Source: Lunatimonas salinarum
GTDB lineage: Bacteria; Bacteroidota; Bacteroidia; Cytophagales; Cyclobacteriaceae
NCBI RefSeq assembly: GCF_017811155.1
Contig: NZ_JACVCV010000005.1
Span: 1-64,000 of the forward strand
DNA: 64,000 bases
Direction: 5' to 3'
Both the position numbers and the translations under genes were made by a program. The notes below the pieces were generated by a model. It did no database searches, was not told where the DNA came from, and worked only from the letters and a program-made list of their open reading frames with translations. Shown here piece by piece: positions 1 through 12,906 of this stretch; the stretch's first letter is position 1; every line of letters starts with the position of its first letter.

Positions 1-57
1 AAGAAGAGGGTGGTCAAGATCACCGGATTGGTGGTCAAGATCACCGGAATTTACACA
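1..57. mobile_element. End of an IS21-like insertion element
   Basis: The left edge holds two direct copies of a GGTGGTCAAGATCACCGGA-type unit, 21 bp apart, followed by an A/T-rich step ending in TTTACACA. Repeated terminal units of this GTGGTCA...CCGGAAT form, with outer ends reading TG on the outgoing strand, are typical of IS21-family (IstA/IstB) elements in Bacteroidota. The outermost base is probably 55 or 57, because TGTAA and TGTGTAA both fit. The transposase genes would lie left of the window. The element breaks hsdS: the last codons and stop of the hsdS reading frame come from element sequence. The family assignment is inferred from terminal repeats only. Confidence 0.68.
9..50. repeat. 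Two 21-bp direct terminal repeats of the IS element
   Basis: The units at 9-29 and 30-50 are identical over their first 19 bases (GGTGGTCAAGATCACCGGA) and differ only in the trailing A/T bases. Such multiple terminal repeats are probably transposase binding sites in IS21-like elements. Confidence 0.75.
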
Positions 58-866
58 AGAGTAGAAATGGTTTTTTGAGTCGAAATGCTATAGTAATTAT
101 GCGTTAAATCACCTGGTGTATAAAATGGAACATCGCCATTCCAATATTCGTTTTTTTCAGTACTCGGTGTGCCACCTCCTCCAAATTTTACAACTTGTGT
201 AAAAGGTTTTACTTCCCACCCCTTCGGAATCTCTTTTCCCAATTCCTCATTCCAAACCATTTCCCCACCACTACTTTTATAAGGCTTTCCATTTTCATCA
301 GGAAATTCAAACTCCACAAACCACTCCCGATAAATCGCCTGTGCGGTTTCTTCCAATTTTTGGATGAGTTGTTGGTTTAGAGTGATACGGTCTTGGATGG
401 TGTTGTATTCTTTTACGATTTCTCGTTGTTTGTCTATGTGGGGGATAGGGAGTTTTAATTCCAAAAAATCTTCCCAAGGTAAATTACCTCTAACCCCTCC
501 TACAGCATAATAAGAAGCTTGCCTGTCAAACTCTGATCGCTCAAACCACATTTTCAAATATTCAGGAATCAGAACAGCTTCATCTTTTACTTCAAAAACT
601 GGATAGGCTGGGGACATAATAGCCTTGTCTTCTGAAAACATTCCAATTGGTATTTTTCCATCTCGGCTAACCTGCATCAAACTGCAAGCAAACTGATTCT
701 TTTTAATCAATTTATAGTTAGATAAGTCCGTTCCAATAATATTGGCTACTGATTTGATAAACTGTTTTGATATGCTTATACCAACTAATGGCAAATCCTC
801 TAATGCAGCATTACGCTCATCTGCAGGCTGTATGTATTTACCAAGTGGTTTATAATTCTTTTGCAT
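51..866 (-). CDS. hsdS: Truncated type I restriction specificity subunit HsdS
   Basis: HsdS chooses the DNA target of a type I restriction-modification complex through two target-recognition domains (TRDs) separated by conserved helices. This 271-residue frame has a complete TRD1 (about 1-150), the central helix region with the typical IYREWFVEFEFP stretch (about 178-190), and the first ~50 residues of TRD2, with the common KGWEV entry and GGTPS turn. Intact subunits are about 400 residues. Translation stops at 51-53, in a codon that belongs to the IS21-like end, so most of TRD2 and the distal conserved region are missing. The start at 866 overlaps the upstream AlbA_2 gene by 17 bp, indicating one operon. 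The product is probably inactive as a full specificity subunit; some half-size S proteins work as dimers, so residual activity cannot be excluded. Confidence 0.85.
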   Translation of the reverse strand: MQKNYKPLGKYIQPADERNAALEDLPLVGISISKQFIKSVANIIGTDLSNYKLIKKNQFACSLMQVSRDGKIPIGMFSEDKAIMSPAYPVFEVKDEAVLIPEYLKMWFERSEFDRQASYYAVGGVRGNLPWEDFLELKLPIPHIDKQREIVKEYNTIQDRITLNQQLIQKLEETAQAIYREWFVEFEFPDENGKPYKSSGGEMVWNEELGKEIPKGWEVKPFTQVVKFGGGGTPSTEKNEYWNGDVPFYTPGDLTHNYYSISTQKTISTLV

Positions 867-2823
867 ATTCCTCTGCTGTTTTATAGCCTTGTTCGGGGTG
901 ATTATGGGTATAAGGAAATCTTTTTTTGAGTTTACCCTCCTTTATCATAATGGGGAAAATCTTGTTTTTCAGGTAATCTACGGACTTTCCTAGAATGGTA
1001 GCGACCTCATCCATCTTAATATATTCATTTTGGCAAATCTTCATTACTTCATCTTCGAGTTGCGCTTTATTTAATTTTGTTCGGGTTGCAACCTTTTGTT
1101 TCGAGGTGTCAACCTTTGGTTTCGAGGTGTTAACCTTTGGTTTCGAGGTGTCAACCTTTGGTTTCGAGGTGTCAACCTTTTGGCTTGTTTCTGACTGATT
1201 ATCAGTGTTTTTAAAAGAGATTTCAACCCTTTTGGAGGTGTCAACCTTTTGGCTCGGACTTGCAACCTTTTTACTAGAGGTGTCAACCTTTTGCTTCAAC
1301 TTGTAAGTAGTCCACCTGCCATTTTTATCTGATTCCAGATAATGATTGGCACAAAGCCTTTGAAGTAGCGCAGTGATGTCAGCACTATGCATGTTCAACA
1401 CATACTGCAAGCGCTGATTAGAGATTGAACCTTCTATTTGGCAAAACGAAAGTGCAGTAAGTTCATCAGGAGTTAGGTTACTCACGTCATCATAAATAGC
1501 ATTTAACTCATCTAATACCACTTCAGGTATCACGCTAAACATGGGCAAGGTGAGTTTCACTCTGTCTGGCTGACTTTCAATTTCTAGAAAAGGCCTTCGC
1601 CAATGAGACTCTTGCCAGCCTGTCATGATTTTATCTACACCACTTCCTGCTTTTTCTGCACGTCCAATCAACATAAACATTTGTTGCAAAGAAGGATTGC
1701 GGCATTCACTAATACCTCCTGCATAATATTGATGAATGGAAAGAAGTAACGTTCCCGGATTTGAAAACACAAATTTTTCTGTATCCAACTCAATCACAAT
1801 ATTCCCGCTGAGAGAATAATCAGTATGTACCAAGGCATTTACAAATGCTTCACGCAAGGCAACATGTGTTGGTGTTTCATCTACCCGTTGATCATTTTCC
1901 AATAGGAAAGGTTTGGGTAATGTAGATGAAAGTTTTGGCCAGACTTTCAGGTAAAATTGAAGCAAATTATTTTCCCATGTGCCATCAGGACAAATTCTAT
2001 CTGTCCAACGGATTTTAGGATCAGTAGAAAGTCTTTCTCTAAAATCAGGGAAAAAGTCAGGTAATTGCTCTTGATCTTGGATACTTTCGGATCTTCCAAA
2101 CATGATCAACCCAGCAAGCGTAATCCCTTCTTGTTTTGATTTCCTATCTATACGATAAGCACCAATTTTTTTAAACAATTCCAAATCATCAAGTGCATGC
2201 CAAGGATGATCCGGTTTTGATGAAACAAACAATTGTCTGAATTGCCTTACTGTAGTTGGATCAAAATCTTTTACTGTGAAATTTTCAAGGATAACACTAT
2301 CTCTTTTCAATTCAGCGCTTGAATCCGCAAGCATGCGCTTAATTTCATCATCCGTACACCGATAATCACCTTCATGATTTCTTTTGTATGTATTACCAAA
2401 TGGATTTCTTGTAAGATAAACAGGCCTTTCTGTTCTCGATGCAAATGGTATTCTAAAAGTTAATAGCTTTTTATCCTTAACCTCGATTACTCTGATATCG
2501 GTATTGGATAATAAATTTCTATTTACAGTATTTGGATTATTGCACTCATCCCAAAACTGTTTTTGATAGGTAGAGATTTGATCATCTGATAAACCCTCAA
2601 TAACAAACTCATCTCTTTTTTCCTTTACTCCTAAAACAATAATTCCAGTTACTGTATTTGCAAAAGCAGAATAAGATTTCCAGAATTCCCTAGGAAATCC
2701 GTTTGAAGCCAATTTGTATTCTATTTCAAAATTTTCATTTGGCAACACATTGGTTGTCAATATTGAATAAATAGAAAATTCATCACCAAGGTCAAAAAGA
2801 TGTAGTTGTTTTTCTGACATCAT
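850..2823 (-). CDS. Schlafen/AlbA_2 ATP-binding protein inside a type I RM operon
   Basis: This 657-residue protein has an N-terminal AlbA_2 (Schlafen-type) nucleic-acid-binding domain (about 23-165; FEIEYK near 33, then a VTGIIVLGV strand). A RecG-like divergent HATPase_c_4 domain follows (about 320-430), with the N-box ALREAFVNALVHTDY at 322-336 and a G-box AEKAGSG near 389. Then come a winged-helix segment (about 450-507), a low-complexity linker of KVDTSKP repeats (510-582) and a C-terminal helical domain. AlbA_2/HATPase_c_4 proteins are often called RecG-like helicases or transcriptional regulators, but many sit in defence islands. Here the start overlaps the hsdM stop in an ATGA arrangement and the stop overlaps the hsdS start, so it is translationally coupled to both RM genes. 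It could be a regulator or an accessory effector; the sequence does not decide which. Confidence 0.85.
   Translation of the reverse strand: MMSEKQLHLFDLGDEFSIYSILTTNVLPNENFEIEYKLASNGFPREFWKSYSAFANTVTGIIVLGVKEKRDEFVIEGLSDDQISTYQKQFWDECNNPNTVNRNLLSNTDIRVIEVKDKKLLTFRIPFASRTERPVYLTRNPFGNTYKRNHEGDYRCTDDEIKRMLADSSAELKRDSVILENFTVKDFDPTTVRQFRQLFVSSKPDHPWHALDDLELFKKIGAYRIDRKSKQEGITLAGLIMFGRSESIQDQEQLPDFFPDFRERLSTDPKIRWTDRICPDGTWENNLLQFYLKVWPKLSSTLPKPFLLENDQRVDETPTHVALREAFVNALVHTDYSLSGNIVIELDTEKFVFSNPGTLLLSIHQYYAGGISECRNPSLQQMFMLIGRAEKAGSGVDKIMTGWQESHWRRPFLEIESQPDRVKLTLPMFSVIPEVVLDELNAIYDDVSNLTPDELTALSFCQIEGSISNQRLQYVLNMHSADITALLQRLCANHYLESDKNGRWTTYKLKQKVDTSSKKVASPSQKVDTSKRVEISFKNTDNQSETSQKVDTSKPKVDTSKPKVNTSKPKVDTSKQKVATRTKLNKAQLEDEVMKICQNEYIKMDEVATILGKSVDYLKNKIFPIMIKEGKLKKRFPYTHNHPEQGYKTAEEYAKEL
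1099..1182. repeat. Four tandem 21-bp in-frame repeats in the AlbA_2 gene
   Basis: Four consecutive units (1099-1119, 1120-1140, 1141-1161, 1162-1182) follow TTTCGAGGTGTCAACCTTTG with one or two changes. Degenerate related units continue to about 1290. On the coding strand each unit encodes seven residues of the KVDTSKP type. Because 21 is a multiple of three, gain or loss of a unit would change linker length without breaking the frame. Confidence 0.92.
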
Positions 2824-4454
2824 TGTTCAATTTTATAACCAAGATTTTTAAATACCTCTAACAGCTCTTGTCTACTTTGTTCTTCCGCTTTCAATAACTC
2901 AGCAAACTCACTTTTCAAGGCATTCATTTTCTCATCAAAGTCAATATTCTCGTCACGGTTTACAAATTCAATGTATTTGCTCGGCACCAAGGAGAAATCT
3001 TTTTTGGCTACTTCATCAAACGAAGCCGAGTAACAGAACTCAGGAATGTCTTTGTAATGGTTAATTGTTAATGATGAATGATTAATGTTTTCGCCTTCAT
3101 TAACCATTAACAATTTATCATTAACCATTGCACCCGTTTGCCAAGTGTGATACGTTTCAACTACTCGCTTAATATCTTCATCCGAAAACTGCGTGTATTT
3201 TTTTTCAAAGGGTTCTCCCATTTGTCGCAAGTCCATAAACAGAATTTCTCTTTCTCTGTCGCGATAATTGCGGATTTCTTCACCCACTTGTTTGCTCTGT
3301 GCTTTCTTATTTTTGTTAACAATCCAAAGCGTAACGCTGATGTCGGTGGTATAAAACAAGTTGCGTGGCAACACCAAAATGGCCTCTACCAAATGATTCT
3401 CAATCAGCTTTCTGCGTATTTTGTATTCTTCACCTCCGCCACTTAAGGCACCATTCGCCAAGATAAAACCAGCCACACCATTTTCAGAAAGTTTGCTCAC
3501 CATAGTCAAAATCCAACCATAGTTGGCGTTGCTTTTGGGTGGCACATCATAACCTCTCCAGCGTGGGTCGTCTGTCAATTCATTTTCAGCCCGCCAGTCC
3601 TTTTGGTTAAAAGGCGGGTTTGCCATAATAAAGTCGGCTTTCAGGTCTTTGTGTTGGTCGTCTAGAAAAGTGTCGGCTGCTTTTTCGCCTAAGTTTCCGC
3701 TAATGCCCCGTATGGCCAAGTTCATCTTTGCCAGTTTGTAGGTGGTGTTGGTGTATTCCTGTCCGTAGATGGAAATTTCCCTTTTGTTGCCGTAGTGTGC
3801 CTCGATAAACTTGATACTCTGCACAAACATACCCCCCGAACCACAGGCAGGGTCATAAATAATGCCCTTGTAGGGTTCAATCATTTCGGCAATCAGGTTG
3901 ACAATGCTTTTGGGCGTGAAAAATTCTCCTTTTCCTTTTCCTTCTGCCAATGCAAACTTGGAAAGGAAATATTCATAGACTTTACCCACCAGATCTTGTT
4001 TGGGGTCTTTGGTGGTGTCAATGTCGTTGATGGTATCTAGCAAAGAAGCCAGTTTGGTCACATCCAATCCTAAGCGTGAAAAGTAATTGTCTGGCAAAGC
4101 ACCTTTCAGTGCTTTATTATTTTTCTCAATGGTATGCAGGGCAGTGTCAATGAGCAAGGCAATGTCGTTCTGCTTGGCTCTTTTAATCAAAAAACTCCAA
4201 CGGCTGGTTTCTTCCAAAAAAAATACATTGTTCATGTTATAGAACTCAGGCATTTCAATATACTTTTCTTTGCCTTCAGAAATGAGTTTGGTTCTATGTT
4301 CTTCAAACTTGTCGCTGGCAAACTTTAAGAAAATCAGTCCTAATACAACGTGTTTGTATTCGGCTGGCTCAACGCTTCCTCTTAATTTATTGGCAGCATC
4401 CCAAAGGGTTACTTCTATAGGTTTTTCTTTTACTTCCTTCTTCTGTTTCGCCAT
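2820..4454 (-). CDS. hsdM: Type I restriction-modification DNA methyltransferase HsdM
   Basis: HsdM is the N6-adenine methyltransferase subunit of a type I RM complex, acting with HsdS. The 544-residue protein has the helical HsdM N-terminal domain (about 12-140), then the N6_Mtase core. AdoMet motif I is DPACGSGG at 201-208 and the catalytic NPPF is at 279-282. The length is normal for the family. Residues about 442-467 are an odd in-frame insert, MVNDKLLMVN followed by NINHSSLTINHY, encoded by a hairpin repeat. It is the first gene of the operon; the start at 4454 follows an AT-rich leader. No hsdR lies in the window, so the nuclease gene is either beyond the left edge or lost. The downstream gene starts within the hsdM stop codon. 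Confidence 0.95.
   Translation of the reverse strand: MAKQKKEVKEKPIEVTLWDAANKLRGSVEPAEYKHVVLGLIFLKFASDKFEEHRTKLISEGKEKYIEMPEFYNMNNVFFLEETSRWSFLIKRAKQNDIALLIDTALHTIEKNNKALKGALPDNYFSRLGLDVTKLASLLDTINDIDTTKDPKQDLVGKVYEYFLSKFALAEGKGKGEFFTPKSIVNLIAEMIEPYKGIIYDPACGSGGMFVQSIKFIEAHYGNKREISIYGQEYTNTTYKLAKMNLAIRGISGNLGEKAADTFLDDQHKDLKADFIMANPPFNQKDWRAENELTDDPRWRGYDVPPKSNANYGWILTMVSKLSENGVAGFILANGALSGGGEEYKIRRKLIENHLVEAILVLPRNLFYTTDISVTLWIVNKNKKAQSKQVGEEIRNYRDREREILFMDLRQMGEPFEKKYTQFSDEDIKRVVETYHTWQTGAMVNDKLLMVNEGENINHSSLTINHYKDIPEFCYSASFDEVAKKDFSLVPSKYIEFVNRDENIDFDEKMNALKSEFAELLKAEEQSRQELLEVFKNLGYKIEQ
3056..3129. repeat. Imperfect inverted repeat inside hsdM
   Basis: Two 32-base arms (3056-3087 and 3098-3129), built from TTAATGGTTAAT-like words, are near reverse complements separated by about 10 bases. 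They lie inside hsdM and are translated as an MVN.../INH... segment. Comparable translated hairpins, giving MVNGEW- and TIHHSPFT-like peptides, recur in Bacteroidota genomes (recalled, not searched). Confidence 0.8.
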
Positions 4455-5106: not shown

Positions 5107-6354
5107 CTAGCCTATAGACCGGTGCCGATTCAACAGCTCCATCAGCCGGTCTACCGCTACCTGGGCAAAAGCGGAATCGTTGATTGAAGCCGGTACTTGG
5201 GTAACAGAAATGCCGGGATCAAGTGCTGCCATCAGTCCCTCCAGGCAGGATTGGTCTGCCTCGCTATCAAAAAACAACCCGCCGGGGGATCCCACTTGGG
5301 AGAAGCCTCCCCGGGGCCACACAACCGCAACCTTCTCGGCTAACGGATTTATCGTTTCGGCGATATGCCTTCCCAATCGCTGATTTTCGGCCTTGTTAGT
5401 CCGCATGAGCGTCACATCCGGCGCCCAATGGTAAAAAAGACGCCCCTGAAACTGGGAGGGTACCGTTTCTGGCCTGCCAAAATTCACCATATCCAGACAG
5501 CCTGGCGCCACCACCATAGGGAGCCCCAGCTGTACGGCGGCTTTCATTCGGTCCGGACCGGCACTTAGGATGCCACCGCAAAACTCGTCGGCAAGTTCGG
5601 TGGTGGTCAGATCCATCACCGCATCAAATACCCCTTCCCGTATCAGCGCCTCCATGTTTCTTCCTCCCACCCCATTGGCGTGGAATGCCATCACCTCAAA
5701 GCCTCTCGCTTCCAACAGCCGCGTACAGGCATTTACACAGTCCGTGGTGTTTCCAAACATGCTGATCGCCACGAGGGGTTTGATGTAGGCGACCCGATCC
5801 CAAGCCACCTCCACCATCGCCAACAGTGCAGCCGCTGCTTGGTGGATGATGGGAAGGATGATCCGGTTGATGCCGGCCACATCCACTACCGATGGAATCA
5901 ACACCACATCTTTCACCCCCACCGAATGGGACACATCTTTGGTAGCCAGGGTAGATATACAGATTTTTGGTAGGCCCAGGGGCAATACCTGAATGGCTCT
6001 TAAAAACAAAAAGGTGCCTCCTCCCCCTCCCATGCCGATCACACCCCTAAGTAGGCCTCGATCCAATAACCCTTTTAGCCAGATTTGACACCCAGCAGCC
6101 AGCTGCTCCAGCGCAAAGCTGCGATCCTTTCGGGATTTCAGCGCTGACAGGGTATAGCCGGCGAGCCCGGCAATCTCCTCGGATTCCACATCCACGGGAA
6201 AGGTCCCCGTACTAGCGGAAATGCCCACATTGACCATTTGAATCGACGCACCACCGGCCTTTAAGGACCGGTACAGCTCTCCATAGATTTCTCCTTTGGT
6301 GTCAAAGCACCCAATGACCACCAAAAAACCTTTCTTGGCAAACGTTGCTTCCAT
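5107..6354 (-). CDS. Tm-1-like ATP-binding domain protein (UPF0261)
   Basis: The 415-residue protein belongs to the UPF0261/Tm-1 family. The N-terminal half opens with a Rossmann-like VVIGCFDTKGE (about 12-22), the family signature around an ATP-binding site. A glycine-rich GMGGGGGT follows at about 105-112. The C-terminal half carries a MAFHANGVGGR segment (about 222-232) and a conserved PGCLDMVNFG near 282-291. The plant homologue Tm-1 blocks a viral replicase, but the bacterial role is not established; bacterial members are often near sugar or aromatic catabolism genes. It stands alone here: an intergenic hairpin region lies downstream and the FAD-oxidase gene upstream is divergent. The length is full for the family, so it appears intact. 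Confidence 0.9.
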   Translation of the reverse strand: MEATFAKKGFLVVIGCFDTKGEIYGELYRSLKAGGASIQMVNVGISASTGTFPVDVESEEIAGLAGYTLSALKSRKDRSFALEQLAAGCQIWLKGLLDRGLLRGVIGMGGGGGTFLFLRAIQVLPLGLPKICISTLATKDVSHSVGVKDVVLIPSVVDVAGINRIILPIIHQAAAALLAMVEVAWDRVAYIKPLVAISMFGNTTDCVNACTRLLEARGFEVMAFHANGVGGRNMEALIREGVFDAVMDLTTTELADEFCGGILSAGPDRMKAAVQLGLPMVVAPGCLDMVNFGRPETVPSQFQGRLFYHWAPDVTLMRTNKAENQRLGRHIAETINPLAEKVAVVWPRGGFSQVGSPGGLFFDSEADQSCLEGLMAALDPGISVTQVPASINDSAFAQVAVDRLMELLNRHRSIG

Positions 6355-6599: not shown

Positions 6600-8537
6600 A
6601 TGTCGGGATCTAGCACACGAGCCGAAAAAAAGAAAAAATCAGTTCATGTAGGATGGGAAGTAGCCAAGCTGCTTTTTACGCTGATTTTTAATAGCGAAAA
6701 AATCCCCGGTCAGGTGGACCGGCTGGACGACGCACTGACCAACCACTGTACCCGCAGCAATAGAACCTGGTGGATCAACCGGATCAACGCCCTAACCAGA
6801 CCACGTTTTGTCCGGCGCTTAATAGAAAAAAAACTCAACAAAAACACACCACTGCATGAATGTGTAAACCTGACCTTGGACGTGGAGCTTTCCCACGACA
6901 AAGTATTTTACAAAGAATCTACTTTTCGCCAAAAATGGGCCAATTGGTATGAAAACCATTGCTCCGAGCCATTGAAGTTTTTTATTCCTGGCAGTGGAAC
7001 CTTTCCGGAATTTGACCCCAAATGCGACAGCCACCTTGTATATGATTACGATGCGGTACTGGAGGTAATCGGAGAAGTGCTGCAGGCAGAGGAAAGCGGC
7101 CGCCAAATACGCGCATTGGGTTCGGGTCACGCCCTGACGCCTATTGCCCAGTCCGACGACTACTTAGTTTGTACCCAATACCTAAATGTGACCAACAGGC
7201 CTGCCAAGGAATTTATCAAAGCAGCCTATAGGGATGGTTTTGAAGTTGAGGTAAATTTTGGCAATCAGACGGCAAAAGAAACCCATTACCTGTTCGAAAC
7301 CAGTGGCGGAACAAAAATACGGCACTTGATCGAGGTACTGGAAAAATACGGCTGGTATCTGATGAATCAGGGAGGGTCCAGCATTCAGTCCATTACAGGA
7401 GCACTTTCTACTTCCACCCATGGTTCAGGAATAGGCTTGGGCCCGATTCCCTCTATGGTGCGATCCCTCACCTTGGTGGGAACTGGCGGAAAGGCGTACC
7501 GGGTAGAAGCATCCGAGGGAGTCACAGATCCAGTACTTTACGACGGGAAAATACCCGGATCAGACAGAACCATTGAGCTGATACAGGATGATGAGACCTT
7601 TCATGCAGTCTTGGTTGGTGTGGGTTGTATGGGCATCGTGGTTTCGATGATACTGGAAGTACAACCCATCTACGGGCTCTTTGAAGAGCGAAGGGTAAGA
7701 AACTGGGATGACGTGAAAGCAGAAATGACGACCTCGCCCGATCTCTACGCCTACCTGAATGCTCACCGCCACTTTGAGGTCTTGATCAACCCGTACATAG
7801 ATCGTAAAGCCACTACAGACACAACGAGAAAATGTTTAGTGACTACGCGGGACTATAGCCATAGCACAGACAAGCACCCCAATGCCCGAAAGGAACGAAA
7901 CTACCTATCCAGTTTTATCTCCGGCATCAATATTTCCGGCAAGCTCTCCCCTTGGGTATTTAACCGCAACCCAGACGCCATCCCGGGCATGATCAATAAT
8001 TCCCTGCATCGTATCGAAGACTATGCCGAACGGGGAAGTGGTTTTGAGGATACGGCCAGAAAAGTGCTGGATCAGGGGCTTGGAGAGCTGAAATTCTACG
8101 GATTTGCCACCGAATACGGCGTGCCATTGGACCGGGTAGTGGATGCGGTGGATCTCATTCTCCGCACCTGCGAAGAGGCTATCCCCTACCGGCATTACCT
8201 GGCCGCCCCTTTTTCCCTTCGCTATGTAAAGCATTGTCCCGCTCACCTATCCATGATGAATACGGGCGACATCTGCATGATCGAACTGGTCAGCGTACGT
8301 GGGGTGACGGGTAGTTACACGTTGCTACGAAAACTGGAAAGTGCCCTGATCGAATTTGGAGCCATTCCGCACTGGGGCCTTTCGGTATTACCCTGGACGC
8401 CGGAGATGGTGGAAAAAGCCTTTCCGAAATTCCACCTCTGGAAAAAATACCAGCAAAAATTTGGCGGGCGGACATTCCTAAACCCCTTTATGGAAGACAT
8501 CCTCGCGCCACGCACGGATGCTATACCTCCTTCCTAA
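6600..8537 (+). CDS. FAD-linked oxidase, D-arabinono-1,4-lactone oxidase-like
   Basis: This 645-residue protein has a VAO/PCMH-type FAD-binding domain. RALGSGHALTP (171-181) has the GxGH arrangement in which the His (about 177) is the usual covalent FAD attachment site in aldonolactone oxidases. GALSTSTHGSGIGLGP (267-282) is the second FAD-contact motif. The C-terminus, with NPFMEDILAP near 631-640, resembles the ALO domain. The ~130 residues before the FAD domain are basic, helical and unusual for the family. Substrate is unknown; sugar lactone or another secondary alcohol is plausible. The stop overlaps the convergent catalase-like gene by 17 bp. Those neighbours are heme peroxidases, and an oxidase of this class would supply hydrogen peroxide to them (inference). 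No Shine-Dalgarno precedes the start; the leader is A-rich. Confidence 0.88.
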   Translation: MSGSSTRAEKKKKSVHVGWEVAKLLFTLIFNSEKIPGQVDRLDDALTNHCTRSNRTWWINRINALTRPRFVRRLIEKKLNKNTPLHECVNLTLDVELSHDKVFYKESTFRQKWANWYENHCSEPLKFFIPGSGTFPEFDPKCDSHLVYDYDAVLEVIGEVLQAEESGRQIRALGSGHALTPIAQSDDYLVCTQYLNVTNRPAKEFIKAAYRDGFEVEVNFGNQTAKETHYLFETSGGTKIRHLIEVLEKYGWYLMNQGGSSIQSITGALSTSTHGSGIGLGPIPSMVRSLTLVGTGGKAYRVEASEGVTDPVLYDGKIPGSDRTIELIQDDETFHAVLVGVGCMGIVVSMILEVQPIYGLFEERRVRNWDDVKAEMTTSPDLYAYLNAHRHFEVLINPYIDRKATTDTTRKCLVTTRDYSHSTDKHPNARKERNYLSSFISGINISGKLSPWVFNRNPDAIPGMINNSLHRIEDYAERGSGFEDTARKVLDQGLGELKFYGFATEYGVPLDRVVDAVDLILRTCEEAIPYRHYLAAPFSLRYVKHCPAHLSMMNTGDICMIELVSVRGVTGSYTLLRKLESALIEFGAIPHWGLSVLPWTPEMVEKAFPKFHLWKKYQQKFGGRTFLNPFMEDILAPRTDAIPPS

Positions 8538-9480
8538 ACGCAGCCAATTCGCGGTACACGGCGCGTCGGGCCAGGTTTATCTCGCCCACCGGCTCGTGGT
8601 CTACCAATCCCATCCAGGGGGAAAACTCCAACGACTCACCAAAGGCCCGCCTTTCCGGTGTATCGAACACCTGTTTCGGCAGGGAGAGTTTCGCCACCGG
8701 TATCAACGGACCCTTCCAAACCCTTGAGGTATCGTTTAGAGGATGTTGGCGGTCGTTCTGATGCAGTTGCACATGCAGCGTAAACGTGTAATCTTTATCC
8801 TTCAGATCCATCTTTAATTGCTCCCGTAAAAAACCGGATGACCGGGTCTTGGTAAGTGAATAGGCCATTTCCGGCTGATCGGATTTGAGTACAAACTTGG
8901 CATAATGCTCAGGCCCCATGCGAAACGCCGCCCCTGAAAAATAATTCTCTGCCAAAAGGTTATCGTGCTTAGCGGAATATTTCAGCGTCAGAAACAAGCT
9001 GCGCCAATGCATTGGATTCAATGCGAACAAGATCCTGGGAAACACCCCTCCCAACACCGCTCCCATAGCCTTCCGGTATAAACGGATGGAGGAGGCCGAG
9101 AGGATAGGACTTGTAGTCAGCAGAAAATTCTGCGTTGGAATACCCAATGGATCTTGTTCTTCCAATAGTTCACCCGTAACATGAAGCACTTTGATCGCTA
9201 ATCCTCTACCCGAACGCCCCGTATCAGCACCGACCTTTGGCGGCGCATTGGACAAGCGCACCCACACATCGTAGGTAGCCGGCTGCTTAAAGAGTCCTAC
9301 CTTCAACGATTCGGGCAGATCTGAAAAAACGGAAAGCGTACCCCGGATACATCCGTGCATTTTGGGGTGAAAATTTCGCTTTCTGGGCACACCTGCGTAT
9401 TCCATTTTCAAAAAGGCCTTCATGGTCTTGATGATTGAAGTCAGGTCCTTTTGCTGTTGGGGGGTGAGTTCAGATTCCAT
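8521..9480 (-). CDS. Catalase-family heme protein (SrpA/allene-oxide-synthase-like)
   Basis: With the start at 9480 the protein has 319 residues. This start makes an 11-bp overlap with the upstream DyP gene; the longer frame to 9534 would add a non-conserved hydrophobic leader. It has the small catalase-fold pattern: FHPKMHGCIRGTL near 35-48 with the likely distal His, the conserved GLFKQPATYDVWVRLSNAPP stretch, RGLAIKV, and the C-terminal FSPWMGLVDHEPVGEINLAR segment. Proteins of this size lack the full catalase C-terminal parts and include peroxidases and fatty-acid-hydroperoxide enzymes rather than true catalases. It is last in a three-gene minus-strand operon and converges on the FAD oxidase. 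Substrate cannot be read from sequence. Confidence 0.87.
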   Translation of the reverse strand: MESELTPQQQKDLTSIIKTMKAFLKMEYAGVPRKRNFHPKMHGCIRGTLSVFSDLPESLKVGLFKQPATYDVWVRLSNAPPKVGADTGRSGRGLAIKVLHVTGELLEEQDPLGIPTQNFLLTTSPILSASSIRLYRKAMGAVLGGVFPRILFALNPMHWRSLFLTLKYSAKHDNLLAENYFSGAAFRMGPEHYAKFVLKSDQPEMAYSLTKTRSSGFLREQLKMDLKDKDYTFTLHVQLHQNDRQHPLNDTSRVWKGPLIPVAKLSLPKQVFDTPERRAFGESLEFSPWMGLVDHEPVGEINLARRAVYRELAAFRKEV

Positions 9481-10891
9481 CGAAATTCGAGATAAATTTA
9501 AGGGCTTTAAGTCCAGGAAAGAAAAAATAAGCACCGCCTCGTATTTTTACAAAGTTGGGTATATTTTCCAATCGCCTCCTTACCGGATAAGTAGGGATGC
9601 TAAACCGATCGGTAACGACCTGATCCTGATGATAATGGTTACCGATTATGGGATCCGCATCCTGTTCGGAACCACCGAACTTATGGAAATTCACCCAGTT
9701 GTTTTGTACAAATTCAAATTGCCTTCGGATATCTGTTACCATACAGATAAAATGAAGGCCTCGCTTCTTTCCATCATCGGTTGCCTTCATGAAGTCGGAC
9801 ACCTGCATGGTAGCTACCAGAGGATCCCCGTAGGGGCGTCCTTTTCGCAACATTAGGTGTTTGGCCACCATTTCTGTCGAATCCTTTTGGCTGGTTTCGG
9901 TAACTAGATGATCGCGTGGATTGGTGCGTCGGATGTGTGAACCTAATGGACATTTCAGCCCGGACCGATCTTCATCCCAATAGCCGAAGTCATTCTCATC
10001 AGACAAGGAAGGGTCAGGTGCCACGGGGCATCGCACCAAAGGGGAACCATCGGGCCACCGACCTACCATTTTAGCAGCCAAAGCGATGGCTTTGTCAGAA
10101 GATTCCGCCTGGGACTTGACGTAATCCCAAAACCTCACCACGTCCTGCTGCATTTGCCGGAAGACCAAATAGGTACCGTTCCGTCCCAAATCCATGAAGC
10201 CGGGATAATCGGGATGTGGTGAAAGCCCTTGAGATCCCGGTGTATGGCTAGGTACAACCGGAGAAGGGGCGTATTCGTCGTAAAGGTTCTTATACCCCAT
10301 GATAAATTCCCCAATAGGATACTTTGGGGCGTTTCCGAGGTCCTTATCTTTCACCAATTCCGCAATTATCGGTCTGGAGATATCGTCTCGAAAACCGAAA
10401 TGCTCCTTTTGATCGTGCAGCATCCCGGTAGGGAGTGAGGAATGCAACATCACCCTGAACAGCGAGGCCCTATTCAATTCGGACTCCACCAACTGATCCA
10501 GTGCCATTGCACTGGAAGCAAAGAGCATCACCAGCATGTGTACATCAGAAGAATCTCGGCCCCAGTCCCAGAAATCCGGCGCATGTTCCCCCGTATCTCC
10601 CAAGATAAACTGCCTATGCGGTTCGGTCATACCCTCCCGAAATTCCCTACTGAAGCTCGCTAATGTTTGATCAGGAACCCCCAAAAACGCCAGTCCGGAA
10701 TAGGTCAAGGCTACCTGACACGCAAACTCAGGCCGCTTATCTCCTGCGTGGGTCACCATTTTCACTAACTGCATAAAATAAGCCTTCGTCTCCTGAAGGG
10801 ATGAAAACCGCATTAGCAAATACTGCGCATGCGGCAGGTGCCCATGGCCCCGGATGGCGAGGCCTTGCATATCCGTTAGTTCGAGTTCCAT
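9470..10891 (-). CDS. DyP-type heme peroxidase family protein
   Basis: The 473-residue protein matches dye-decolorizing peroxidases. The distal motif is at 166-170 and reads GFRDD, where most DyPs have GxxDG; the catalytic Asp is kept but the final Gly is Asp. The proximal heme ligand region is GSHIRRTNPRD (about 317-327), with His 319 the probable axial ligand. The length matches the longer DyP classes. There is no Tat or Sec signal, so it is probably cytoplasmic. It starts 3 bp after the membrane-protein gene and overlaps the catalase-like gene by 11 bp, so the three are co-translated. DyPs use hydrogen peroxide to oxidise varied organic substrates; the local FAD oxidase could be the peroxide source. 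Confidence 0.9.
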   Translation of the reverse strand: MELELTDMQGLAIRGHGHLPHAQYLLMRFSSLQETKAYFMQLVKMVTHAGDKRPEFACQVALTYSGLAFLGVPDQTLASFSREFREGMTEPHRQFILGDTGEHAPDFWDWGRDSSDVHMLVMLFASSAMALDQLVESELNRASLFRVMLHSSLPTGMLHDQKEHFGFRDDISRPIIAELVKDKDLGNAPKYPIGEFIMGYKNLYDEYAPSPVVPSHTPGSQGLSPHPDYPGFMDLGRNGTYLVFRQMQQDVVRFWDYVKSQAESSDKAIALAAKMVGRWPDGSPLVRCPVAPDPSLSDENDFGYWDEDRSGLKCPLGSHIRRTNPRDHLVTETSQKDSTEMVAKHLMLRKGRPYGDPLVATMQVSDFMKATDDGKKRGLHFICMVTDIRRQFEFVQNNWVNFHKFGGSEQDADPIIGNHYHQDQVVTDRFSIPTYPVRRRLENIPNFVKIRGGAYFFFPGLKALKFISNFDGI

Positions 10892-10894
10892 CTG

Positions 10895-12214
10895 CTATAT
10901 CCTAAGTAACCACTCCCGTATTTCATCGTCTTTCATTTCCTTGAACAATCCCTCGCGAAATGCCCGGTTATTTTTTAGATTTTCTACGCTCAGCCCCTCA
11001 TTATAGGCATACCAACATTGAGTAATTTGCTGATGTGCCCTAACACCCTTCATGTATTCACTGCGATGGTTGTACTGCTTGTGTACCAGCCAACGAGTGG
11101 CAGGAAAACCAAATGCATGACTGAAAATAACCGCCATATTCATTGTCCTGCGTTCGCTGTCTACAAAATCATGGGCATAAGCCTCTGAAATATTGTCAAA
11201 AGTCGCAATGAAGACGAGACGCTTTCCATTGTCAGTCTGCAGCCACCTAGCTGTATGTACCGTGGGGATGTATGAAAAATAACGGATCAAGAATACAAGC
11301 CGTAATGAAACCGCTAAGAAAACCCGCCGAATCCATCCCTTTTTTAACGGAGCAATTACGGTCATTTCATTAATCACCGGATTGGTTTCTCGGGTCACGA
11401 TGTCCCGAACCCGCTCGTCTGATGCCGCCGTTCCGGGTATATGGGGGTTAAGTTCGTTAAGACGTAGCAAAAGGAACAAGATCAACATGGCTGCTACAAA
11501 TACCGGGAAGAACCAAACCAAAATATCCAAGACCATTCCATCCATGAAAAACCGAAGTATCAGAGAAATCAAGGATGATGACATCAGTAGGACAAACAAA
11601 CCCAAGGGAAATAACATACGGATCCTATCCCAGCGTACGCCTGGTATTCCTTGGCGGGCCCACTGAAGCTTTGGATGGTCCTTGACAAAATCTTCAATCA
11701 GCTGCTTCATCTCTGATGGGCTCCTTGAGGCCAAATCTACCGCTCTAGAACGATTAGTCAGGTGGTTAAACACCTCCTCCTTCAGTTGGGCTTCCTGATC
11801 TATATCCTGGGTCGCGACAAATTTAAATCCGGCATAGAAGGTATTGGGGATTGACTTTTTACGTAAAAAAGCCACCAAATCGACATTGGCATCGGCAGGG
11901 AATTCATCGCTCAATGAAAACACCTGCTGCATCTTCGTAGAAAAGCACCTAGCTAACTCCCGAAGATGGTTTTTGTGGTTTCCGACGTAACTAGTCATCA
12001 GTAGAATTCTTGCGGGTAGCCTTTCCTCACCAGCATAAACCTGGGTCGGCAGCACCAGCCAACTCAAAAACAAAACCGATGGAATTTCCTTTTGATAAAT
12101 TGACTTGCTTTCCCTCAGTTCACGGTTGAGTTGTTCGAGTAGCAGCGAAGCAGCGTCAATCTGTTCTTCCGCAATCTTAACTGTAACGGTGAGCCCTCTA
12201 TGAATCCTAGACAT
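10895..12214 (-). CDS. Membrane protein of unknown function linked to DyP and catalase-like genes
   Basis: I do not recognise a named family. With the start at 12214 the product has 439 residues. An in-frame ATG at 12301 would add 29 residues coded by very AT-rich, non-coding-looking sequence, so the shorter start is preferred. Residues about 70-150 form a soluble alpha/beta segment (ARILLMTSYVGNHKNHLREL...). Two strong membrane helices follow (about 220-240 and 250-275), with a weaker hydrophobic stretch near 325. The C-terminal ~110 residues are soluble and rich in conserved-looking His, Arg and Trp (IATFDNISEAYAHDFVD; VIFSHAFGFPATRW; CWYAYNEGLS). It is first in the operon with DyP and the catalase-like gene. 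A membrane anchor or lipid-facing partner for the peroxidases is possible; this is inference. Confidence 0.75.
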   Translation of the reverse strand: MSRIHRGLTVTVKIAEEQIDAASLLLEQLNRELRESKSIYQKEIPSVLFLSWLVLPTQVYAGEERLPARILLMTSYVGNHKNHLRELARCFSTKMQQVFSLSDEFPADANVDLVAFLRKKSIPNTFYAGFKFVATQDIDQEAQLKEEVFNHLTNRSRAVDLASRSPSEMKQLIEDFVKDHPKLQWARQGIPGVRWDRIRMLFPLGLFVLLMSSSLISLILRFFMDGMVLDILVWFFPVFVAAMLILFLLLRLNELNPHIPGTAASDERVRDIVTRETNPVINEMTVIAPLKKGWIRRVFLAVSLRLVFLIRYFSYIPTVHTARWLQTDNGKRLVFIATFDNISEAYAHDFVDSERRTMNMAVIFSHAFGFPATRWLVHKQYNHRSEYMKGVRAHQQITQCWYAYNEGLSVENLKNNRAFREGLFKEMKDDEIREWLLRI

Positions 12215-12435: not shown

Positions 12436-12906
12436 CTATCTGACCTTCCCGGCCATGACACCGGTAATAGACAACAGATCGGCAACTTCCTTCTCTGTAA
12501 ACTCATAGGGCATCTTTTTGGCAATTCCCAATGTTCCATACAATTTACCTTCCAACAAAAGAGGAACGGTGATTGCTCCCTCCACCTTGGTATCCTTTGC
12601 ACCAGGCCTGACCACACCGGACTCATCCGTCTGTAAATTACATACTTGGACAGCTTGTTTTCTTTCGGCAGCGATGCCGGCCATTCCTTTTCCTACCGGT
12701 ACTACCGACATCTTAGGAAGTAAAAAATCGGGTACCCCAACCTGTGCCTCAAGCATTAATAAATCGGTACCGGATTCAAGGATATGAATGGTTCCCGTGG
12801 TGCAGTCAAAGCATGACAATGTCTCCTTCAACCAAGCTTCCCAGGAAAAATGGTCACTGCTCAAAATAGATTCTTTCAGGTGGGCAATCCGTGTCTGTGC
12901 ATTCAT
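12436..12906 (-). CDS. GAF domain-containing protein
   Basis: The 156-residue protein is essentially one GAF domain (about 20-156). Its core strands include TGTIHIL, the GKGMAGIAAERKQAVQVCNL segment and AITVPLLLEGKLYGTLGIAK, followed by the closing helix FTEKEVADLLSITG. Stand-alone GAF proteins bind small ligands or sense redox state; fRMsr-type methionine sulfoxide reductases are one known group, but the cysteine pattern here (positions near 33, 36 and 108) was not verified against that family. It is monocistronic and lies near the heme-peroxidase cassette, so a redox link is possible but unproven. Confidence 0.85.
   Translation of the reverse strand: MNAQTRIAHLKESILSSDHFSWEAWLKETLSCFDCTTGTIHILESGTDLLMLEAQVGVPDFLLPKMSVVPVGKGMAGIAAERKQAVQVCNLQTDESGVVRPGAKDTKVEGAITVPLLLEGKLYGTLGIAKKMPYEFTEKEVADLLSITGVMAGKVR

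Follow-up and report, generated by a model that had tools for sequence, protein, structure and literature searches.

The question raised by this locus is whether four adjoining genes of Lunatimonas salinarum, coding for a flavin adenine dinucleotide (FAD)-dependent oxidase (OX), a catalase-like heme protein (CAT), a DyP-type peroxidase (DyP) and a predicted integral-membrane protein (MEM), form one oxidative system, and what such a system would do. The genes lie in the window, the whole stretch of 64,000 nucleotides that was analysed (positions 1 to 64,000 of contig NZ_JACVCV010000005.1), and are listed in Table 1. An initial annotation had described the four open reading frames (ORFs) and their compact junctions, all of which are borne out on the window sequence, and had proposed a single, self-contained oxidation system for a lipid, sterol or aromatic substrate. 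Comparison with other genomes retains part of that proposal. MEM and DyP are the core of a module, CAT is one of its two alternative third parts, a cytochrome P450 (P450) being the other, and OX is a linked partner in the clade of the window only, not a general part of the module.

Table 1. Genes of the four-gene cassette and neighbouring features of the window
Feature	Coordinates	Strand	Description
OX	6600..8537	+	FAD-dependent oxidase, ALO / alditol-oxidase branch of the VAO superfamily, 645 aa
CAT	8521..9480	-	catalase-like heme protein related to PDB 3e4w, 319 aa
DyP	9470..10891	-	DyP-type peroxidase, 473 aa
MEM	10895..12214	-	integral-membrane protein (predicted), 439 aa, two ABM-like alpha+beta domains around a transmembrane hairpin
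GAF protein	12436-12906	-	small GAF-domain protein
UPF0261 protein	5107-6354		divergent from OX
ORF	2820-4454		presumably a type I restriction-modification methyltransferase subunit

OX and CAT are convergent and share 17 bp (8521-8537), the overlap between CAT and DyP is 11 bp long (9470-9480), and a gap of 3 bp (10892-10894) separates DyP from MEM. The second overlap holds if the ATG at 9480 is taken as the start of CAT; the orthologue of CAT in locus L195 begins at the equivalent alignment position (loci and genomes are cited by L and G numbers, respectively). From this layout MEM, DyP and CAT read as one operon with MEM first.

The core was followed most widely in a scan of genome contigs with a profile of the MEM C-terminal domain, from which the best 80 of 282 relatives were kept. 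These relatives were found by two motifs of that domain, so that motif conservation among the 80 loci follows from the way they were selected, and the selection favours the P450 type. By their record titles the loci belong to Bacteroidota, Pseudomonadota, Myxococcota, Armatimonadota, Planctomycetota, Gemmatimonadota, Nitrospirota, Actinomycetota and Chloroflexota, the sole Planctomycetota locus stopping before the DyP position. MEM adjoins or is fused to DyP in 77 of the 80, with DyP following MEM on one strand in 56, called fused in 15 and containing the MEM match inside its own ORF in six; two of the remaining three (L038 and L040) reach a contig edge. MEM-DyP fusions are found in L009 and seven more loci. 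Within the order to which the window belongs, 26 of 390 genomes have MEM, and the 20 regions read for those 26 all carry MEM and DyP together, with a 126-residue ORF between them in L196; CAT is present in 11 of these regions and P450 in one. Three of the regions repeat wide-scan loci (L198 and L030, L199 and L033, L214 and L028). In a sample of 295 genomes of the class, DyP at E < 1e-100 occurs in exactly the five genomes with MEM at E < 1e-19 (G144, where two ORFs make up MEM, is one of the five), a sixth genome giving a partial MEM match (6e-4) and one other genome a weak DyP match (2.4e-16). The chance of the same five genomes being hit is 1/C(295,5) = 5.6e-11, ignoring kinship, and this shared confinement places the MEM-DyP linkage beyond chance.

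The third part varies. P450 is present in 36 of the 80 wide-scan loci, eight times as a P450-MEM-DyP fusion, and CAT in three (L043, L048 and L087), of which L043 has a CAT-MEM fusion of 821 residues followed by DyP. Plasmids of Novosphingobium, Pararhizobium and Sulfitobacter encode P450-MEM-DyP proteins of 1443, 1423 and 1620 residues, respectively, and in Skermanella the same three parts are separate, adjoining genes. In a quick tree of 91 MEM rows, labelled CAT (14), P450 (35) or neither (42), the labels need 16 changes, and three for CAT alone, which argues that the third part has been repeatedly gained, lost or exchanged. All 41 P450 rows (row L011P repeats L031) retain the Cys motif, and the acid-threonine pair of the I-helix is altered in 16 of them, including the fused alphaproteobacterial ones and that of Skermanella. 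As a separate observation, the P450 by MEM-DyP in L014:12156-14273 has a glutathione S-transferase-like N-terminal half by a weak Pfam match, and P450 ORFs of similar length (677-703 residues) in methanotroph-type loci (L054, L056, L057, L060, L064 and L073) may share it.

As for the complete set of four, on whose conservation the initial annotation had let its proposal depend, the neighbours proved to be conserved together in three further genomes of the order, in three arrangements. L195, from the family of the window, repeats the window arrangement with convergent OX (OX E 1e-251); in L196, from another family, OX is divergent and placed before MEM (2e-136); and in L197, from a third family, OX, MEM, DyP and CAT follow one another on one strand (1.6e-12). 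The MEMs of the window and of these three loci form one group in the quick tree (SH-aLRT 100), and a four-gene linkage that survives rearrangement argues for function. OX had first been favoured as a chance neighbour, considering its relatives that stand alone and its rarity in the wide scan, and this view was withdrawn for the clade of the window because the four-gene set was found in three further genomes. With L199, which lies on the same contig as L033 and has a shorter FAD oxidase near a P450 version of the core, OX is near the core in four of the 20 order regions. At the genome level, the OX profile (E <= 1e-20) matches 14 of 23 MEM genomes (23 of the 26 were entered) versus one of 26 hand-chosen order genomes without a MEM match, with a Fisher p of 1.9e-5 that ignores kinship and genome size.

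A soluble, one-domain relative of MEM, here called X, extends the pairing to further bacteria. X comprises hypothetical proteins of 170-248 residues near DyP in alphaproteobacteria, Acinetobacter, Rhodococcus, Streptomyces, Nostoc and Deinococcus. The MEM profile matches all 15 tested (1e-10 to 1e-20), and 13 of these have retained an H-x-x-R motif resembling the one in MEM. In a plasmid collection, DyP is on the X strand within 1.6 kb in 35 of 36 X-matched records (within 150 bp in 24), one of the 36, CP119567, being the Pararhizobium P450-MEM-DyP protein itself, and an X or MEM-type gene is present in 45 of the 60 DyP plasmid records listed (60 of 64). CAT, X and DyP are together in 12 of 12 annotated regions by annotation and in 11 by profile; the regions were hand-picked, and six of them (L224-L229) were chosen without a prior listed CAT match. 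In each of these six a catalase or catalase family protein is annotated, that of L227 not being among the profile matches. Both third parts stand together on a Methylorubrum populi plasmid (L223:1374-7347), where ferredoxin, FAD-dependent oxidoreductase, P450, CAT, X and DyP form one gene run. The module can also sit on small plasmids, since X, DyP and CAT are encoded together with a 3-hydroxyacyl-CoA dehydrogenase on a 12.4-kb plasmid of Acinetobacter lwoffii from permafrost (L228). In two Nostoc loci and one Streptomyces locus (L218:7350-8390, L220:7362-8390 and L219:4950-5963) a protein of about 340 residues, without a Pfam match in L218, lies in place of CAT or P450 and is a possible third alternative partner.

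The peroxidase itself scores 22.4 bits against PF20628 (Dyp_perox_C, cut-off 20) and falls below the cut-offs of DyP_N PF21105 (18.5 of 27.5) and NCBIfam TIGR01413 (84 of 100.5). Residues D169, H319, R349 and R352 are invariant in 37 of 37 aligned MEM-linked DyPs, D169 being the catalytic Asp of the GXXDG motif and H319 and R349 presumably the proximal His and the distal Arg, as in the DyP family; the GXXDG motif reads GFRDD in the window, its final Gly being replaced by Asp. The closest solved structures are 8re3 (2.2e-53) and 8re2 (4.6e-53), both of the Deinococcus radiodurans enzyme DrDyP. The D. radiodurans plasmid record (L221) has the gene order 3-hydroxyacyl-CoA dehydrogenase, X, DyP, CAT (a catalase family protein), and the DyP of this X locus is DrDyP: the alignment spans the full 445 residues of 8re3 and shows differences at the mutated motif residue and at one further position. 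According to the structural report, 8re3 is the M190G mutant and 8re2 is DrDyP (DR_A0145), in which the last GXXDG residue is Met; exchange of this Met for Gly gives no rescue at pH 7.5, where DrDyP alone is low-spin and inactive, and the authors ask what triggers activity and speculate on control by other proteins, such as encapsulin (PMC10820274). DrDyP was studied alone, and the words catalase and operon are absent from the text of that paper (PMC10820274). The pairing, taken together with the low-spin, inactive state of lone DrDyP at pH 7.5, suggests that DyP needs a partner of the antibiotic biosynthesis monooxygenase-like (ABM-like) type.

Neither Pfam nor NCBIfam yields a match for MEM up to E 0.1. 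An AlphaFold2 model of the window protein, built on a 44-row alignment, has a mean predicted local distance difference test score (pLDDT) of 87.2 and a predicted template modelling score (pTM) of 0.85, and consists of two beta-alpha-beta-beta-alpha-beta units separated by a helical hairpin at 194-255. The two helices of this hairpin have transmembrane hydropathy, and a stretch of that kind is present in 42 of 44 MEMs. In VIA-align the model is matched by WhiE-ORFI (9lmn_B) at Z 14.5 over 223 residues with a root mean square deviation of 4.1, followed by Abx(+)O (Z 10.4) and 3f44 (Z 9.4). As modelled, MEM is most aptly described as a duplicated ABM-like barrel anchored in the membrane, and ABM-like only, because no curated ABM or SchA family is matched by its sequence; the shared fold says nothing on function. 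Heme-binding alpha+beta barrels include IsdG-like and DyP-like forms, according to a published account (PMC4835899). Residues G293, R296, H320, W324, F335, Y346, F350, D352, P371 and R392 are invariant in 44 of 44 MEMs. A weak match of the MEM profile to CSC1-like ERD4 among PDB sequences (E 0.004), in a helical stretch with scattered gaps, was judged to be chance. In L012:6398-7578 (G144) MEM appears as two consecutive ORFs with the break near the domain boundary, either through a frameshift or as a true two-gene form.

CAT matches PF00199 at E 0.0028 with 17.2 bits, under the curated cut-off of 25, and is therefore filed as catalase-like and not as a catalase. A profile of nine CAT relatives finds PDB 3e4w at 6.9e-16, with no true catalase matched better than 8e-8, in keeping with its prediction as a 3e4w-related heme protein; 3e4w is presumably a mycobacterial catalase-related peroxidase active on organic hydroperoxides. 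A putative distal His38 and a proximal Arg305 and Tyr309 (RxxxY), whose roles we assume from catalases, are kept in 27 of 27 aligned CATs adjoining MEM or X; the CAT of L012, outside these 27, has no distal His in the alignment. CAT occurs in 16 of 395 genomes of a phylum sample, and among 18 stretches from that sample, each reaching about 1.5 kb beyond the match, DyP is beside CAT only in the window, so that CAT alone is no predictor of the module. Its relatives adjoin other peroxidases, namely a haem peroxidase in L121 and, in L123, a RoxA-like di-heme cytochrome together with a patatin-like protein. The CAT of L209 bears a Polyketide_cyc2 (polyketide cyclase / lipid transport) domain. Apart from the module, Bacteroidota ORFs of 1055-1086 residues (L104-L107, L109, L110 and L118; clipped to 820-842 residues in the loci) appear to be fusions of a catalase-like domain with a quinoprotein oxidase of the LodA type, an oxidase of the peroxide-forming type; LodA_N and LodA_C are assigned by Pfam in L104, and the other fusions are judged by sequence likeness. 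OX, which like CAT is found in other contexts too, matches PF04030 (ALO) with 46.1 bits (cut-off 23.1) and PF01565 (FAD_binding_4) with 31.1 bits (cut-off 26.4) and has an N-terminal extension of about 150 residues; its relatives in the PDB, galactonolactone dehydrogenase and xylitol oxidase among them, include both an oxidase and dehydrogenases.

The substrate is suggested by gene context. Fatty-acid metabolism genes lie within about 6 kb in seven of the 12 CAT-X-DyP regions: L215, L217 and L222 have oleate hydratase, 3-hydroxyacyl-CoA dehydrogenase, thioesterase and a TetR regulator; 3-hydroxyacyl-CoA dehydrogenase is near the core in D. radiodurans and A. lwoffii; L225 has a thioesterase and a patatin, and L224 an acyl-CoA dehydrogenase with electron transfer flavoprotein genes. 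A patatin gene is also near the core in L014, of the Bacteroidota. A lipid, among the substrates proposed initially, gains support from this context together with the Polyketide_cyc2 domain on one CAT, and the module may carry out lipid (hydro)peroxide chemistry. No lipoxygenase or haem dioxygenase is among the four window proteins or among the 25 families listed (of 60) for 77 operon mates, a Pfam tally that took in 77 of 112 proteins and excluded P450, CAT, any gene beyond the third place and proteins longer than 1100 residues.

These observations are best joined in a mechanism in which MEM would tether the enzymes at the membrane and, through its barrel, bind or present a hydrophobic substrate. 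OX would oxidise an alcohol or lactone-type substrate and release hydrogen peroxide (H2O2); DyP, its activity dependent on the ABM partner, would use the peroxide on an unsaturated fatty-acyl chain or other lipid; and CAT, or P450 in its place, would rearrange or reduce the resulting organic hydroperoxide. That the module is a tethered, lipid-oxidising unit of DyP and an ABM-barrel partner (MEM or X), often with CAT or P450, seems to us evenly balanced between right and wrong. A fuller version is put forward more tentatively, as falling somewhat short of that balance: one large DyP branch would be the catalytic half of a two-protein unit in which the ABM-like X or MEM activates it and delivers a hydrophobic substrate, CAT or P450 would complete an oxylipin-type synthase, sited at the membrane where the partner is MEM, and the window would add its own peroxide-generating oxidase.

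Several findings weigh against these proposals. As regards the core, L050 has no called DyP, 15 of the 60 listed DyP plasmid records lack X or MEM by tblastn (L218 and L220, which are among them, have X by profile), and DrDyP is active at low pH without a partner (PMC10820274). The window MEM deviates at near-invariant positions, for example H48 to L, D77 to V, C102 to S, N338 to T and W343 to S. The role of holder given to the membrane protein in the initial annotation fits the MEM-DyP, P450-MEM-DyP and CAT-MEM fusions, but the AlphaFold2 model of a natural MEM-DyP fusion (L072; pLDDT 86.7) has a pTM of only 0.62 and gives no confident interface, and for this reason no MEM-DyP interface is claimed. 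With regard to the third part, the 42 MEM rows without CAT or P450 in the available stretch indicate that it is optional, encoded elsewhere or cut off. The I-helix pair is kept in 25 of the 41 P450 rows, which fits ordinary O2 chemistry over hydroperoxide use, and the ferredoxin and reductase of one P450 locus would suit the same chemistry; with no CYP74- or CYP152-named match among the 60 of 143 PDB matches listed for P450, peroxide-driven P450 chemistry is not established. OX stands near the core in only one of the 80 wide-scan loci (L033, a shorter FAD oxidase) and does not adjoin MEM in 10 of the 14 OX-positive MEM genomes; its relatives in two class genomes (G075 and G012) have no MEM, DyP or CAT nearby, and in the genome comparison, uncorrected for kinship and genome size, 20 of the 26 controls come from the family of the window. 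Finally, three of the seven fatty-acid cases (L215, L217 and L222) are near copies.

Among other explanations is detoxification. DyP and CAT would then be scavengers of peroxide or lipid hydroperoxide, held at the membrane by MEM, with a protective role and no product, in keeping with the closeness of CAT to 3e4w, presumably a peroxidase acting on organic hydroperoxides, and with the CAT relatives of L121 and L123 that adjoin other peroxidases. A presumed H2O2-forming oxidase within the cluster would be odd for a scavenger, however, as would the replacement of CAT by P450 in many loci, and the regulatory genes noted in some loci are divergent TetR genes with fatty-acid enzymes, no search having been aimed at peroxide regulators. 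Such a purely protective role is considered rather unlikely.

A signalling function, with an oxidised lipid sensed by neighbouring class III adenylate/guanylate cyclases, GAF or 7TMR receptors, appears improbable. Cyclase genes are present in 14 of the 100 loci of the wide scan and the order search (three of the 100 being repeats), all within two genes of the core and in three lineages (L206, L209-L213, L075, L080, L086, L090, L095, L096, L098 and L100); those of L206 and L209 are joined to 7TMR(-DISM) or kinase-AAA-GAF modules, and in the window the GAF protein lies just upstream of MEM. On the other hand, 86 of the 100 loci have no cyclase match with the three seeds used, the genome of the window has no cyclase above threshold, each cyclase lineage is perhaps one event, and chance is possible in G816, which has 26 cyclase matches. 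Tailoring of a natural product or aromatic compound, in which MEM would be an ABM/SchA-like monooxygenase and the heme enzymes would modify a polyketide or aromatic, is given a similarly small chance: the top fold match of MEM is the polyketide protein WhiE-ORFI and the CAT of L209 has its Polyketide_cyc2 domain, yet no polyketide-synthase family is among the 25 listed (of 60) for the 77 operon mates, and fold likeness decides function neither way. That the four genes are mere neighbours without joint function, as the OX relatives lacking the other genes and the many other contexts of CAT might suggest, is very improbable and largely refuted for MEM, DyP and CAT by the fusions (P450-MEM-DyP, CAT-MEM) and the linkage, with co-conservation in three arrangements and the genome co-occurrence of MEM with DyP and of the OX profile also speaking against it.

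The tethered lipid-oxidising unit can be set beside several known systems. DrDyP is the closest solved relative of the window DyP and its gene adjoins X and CAT, but it has the soluble X in place of MEM and no OX beside it. WhiE-ORFI and other ABM / SchA-like dimeric alpha+beta barrels (9lmn, 9ltx and 3f44, at the Z scores of 14.5, 10.4 and 9.4) share the two-domain barrel of the MEM model; unlike them, MEM has an interdomain transmembrane hairpin, linkage to DyP and no curated family match. The plasmid catalase of Sinorhizobium fredii NGR234, whose gene we take to be y4iL, belongs to the CAT family (29.5% identity), and differs in its neighbours, a RoxA-like di-heme cytochrome and a patatin-like protein, with no MEM or DyP within the 13 kb read. 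In coral, a catalase-related allene oxide synthase or hydroperoxide lyase is fused to a lipoxygenase, so that a catalase-like heme protein acting on fatty-acid hydroperoxides is genetically joined to an oxidative enzyme (PMC5617202); the module described here pairs CAT with DyP and an ABM-like barrel, and no lipoxygenase is among the four window proteins. Fungal dioxygenase-P450 oxylipin fusions likewise join a heme peroxidase-type enzyme to a P450 that can be self-sufficient on hydroperoxides (PMC13049297), whereas the bacterial P450-MEM-DyP proteins have a membrane ABM-like protein in between and a peroxidase of another family.

No DyP-ABM, DyP-P450 or DyP-CAT gene unit was found among the matches listed in the open-access literature. 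The parts other than MEM and X are known families, and MEM/X is a new protein family in a multi-heme oxidative module. If the proposal is true, the unit of X or MEM and DyP with CAT or P450 would be the bacterial equivalent of the dioxygenase-P450 fusions of fungi and the lipoxygenase-allene oxide synthase fusions of corals. The natural substrates and partners of DyPs are an open question, for which the ABM-like protein, adjoining DrDyP itself, is a concrete partner candidate that may explain why DrDyP, purified without it, is inactive at physiological pH. One place beside the core can be filled by either a catalase-like protein or a P450, and the gene neighbours point to fatty-acid chemistry.

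Around the cassette, the GAF-domain protein encoded directly upstream of MEM may be a sensor of the module product or unrelated to it, and the gene on the other flank, beyond OX, codes for a UPF0261 protein. The first 4 kb of the window have a G+C content of 0.384, compared with 0.436-0.502 in the remaining 4-kb blocks, and because of this low value the start of the window (1-4454), which includes the ORF resembling, as we take it, a restriction-modification methyltransferase subunit, may be foreign.

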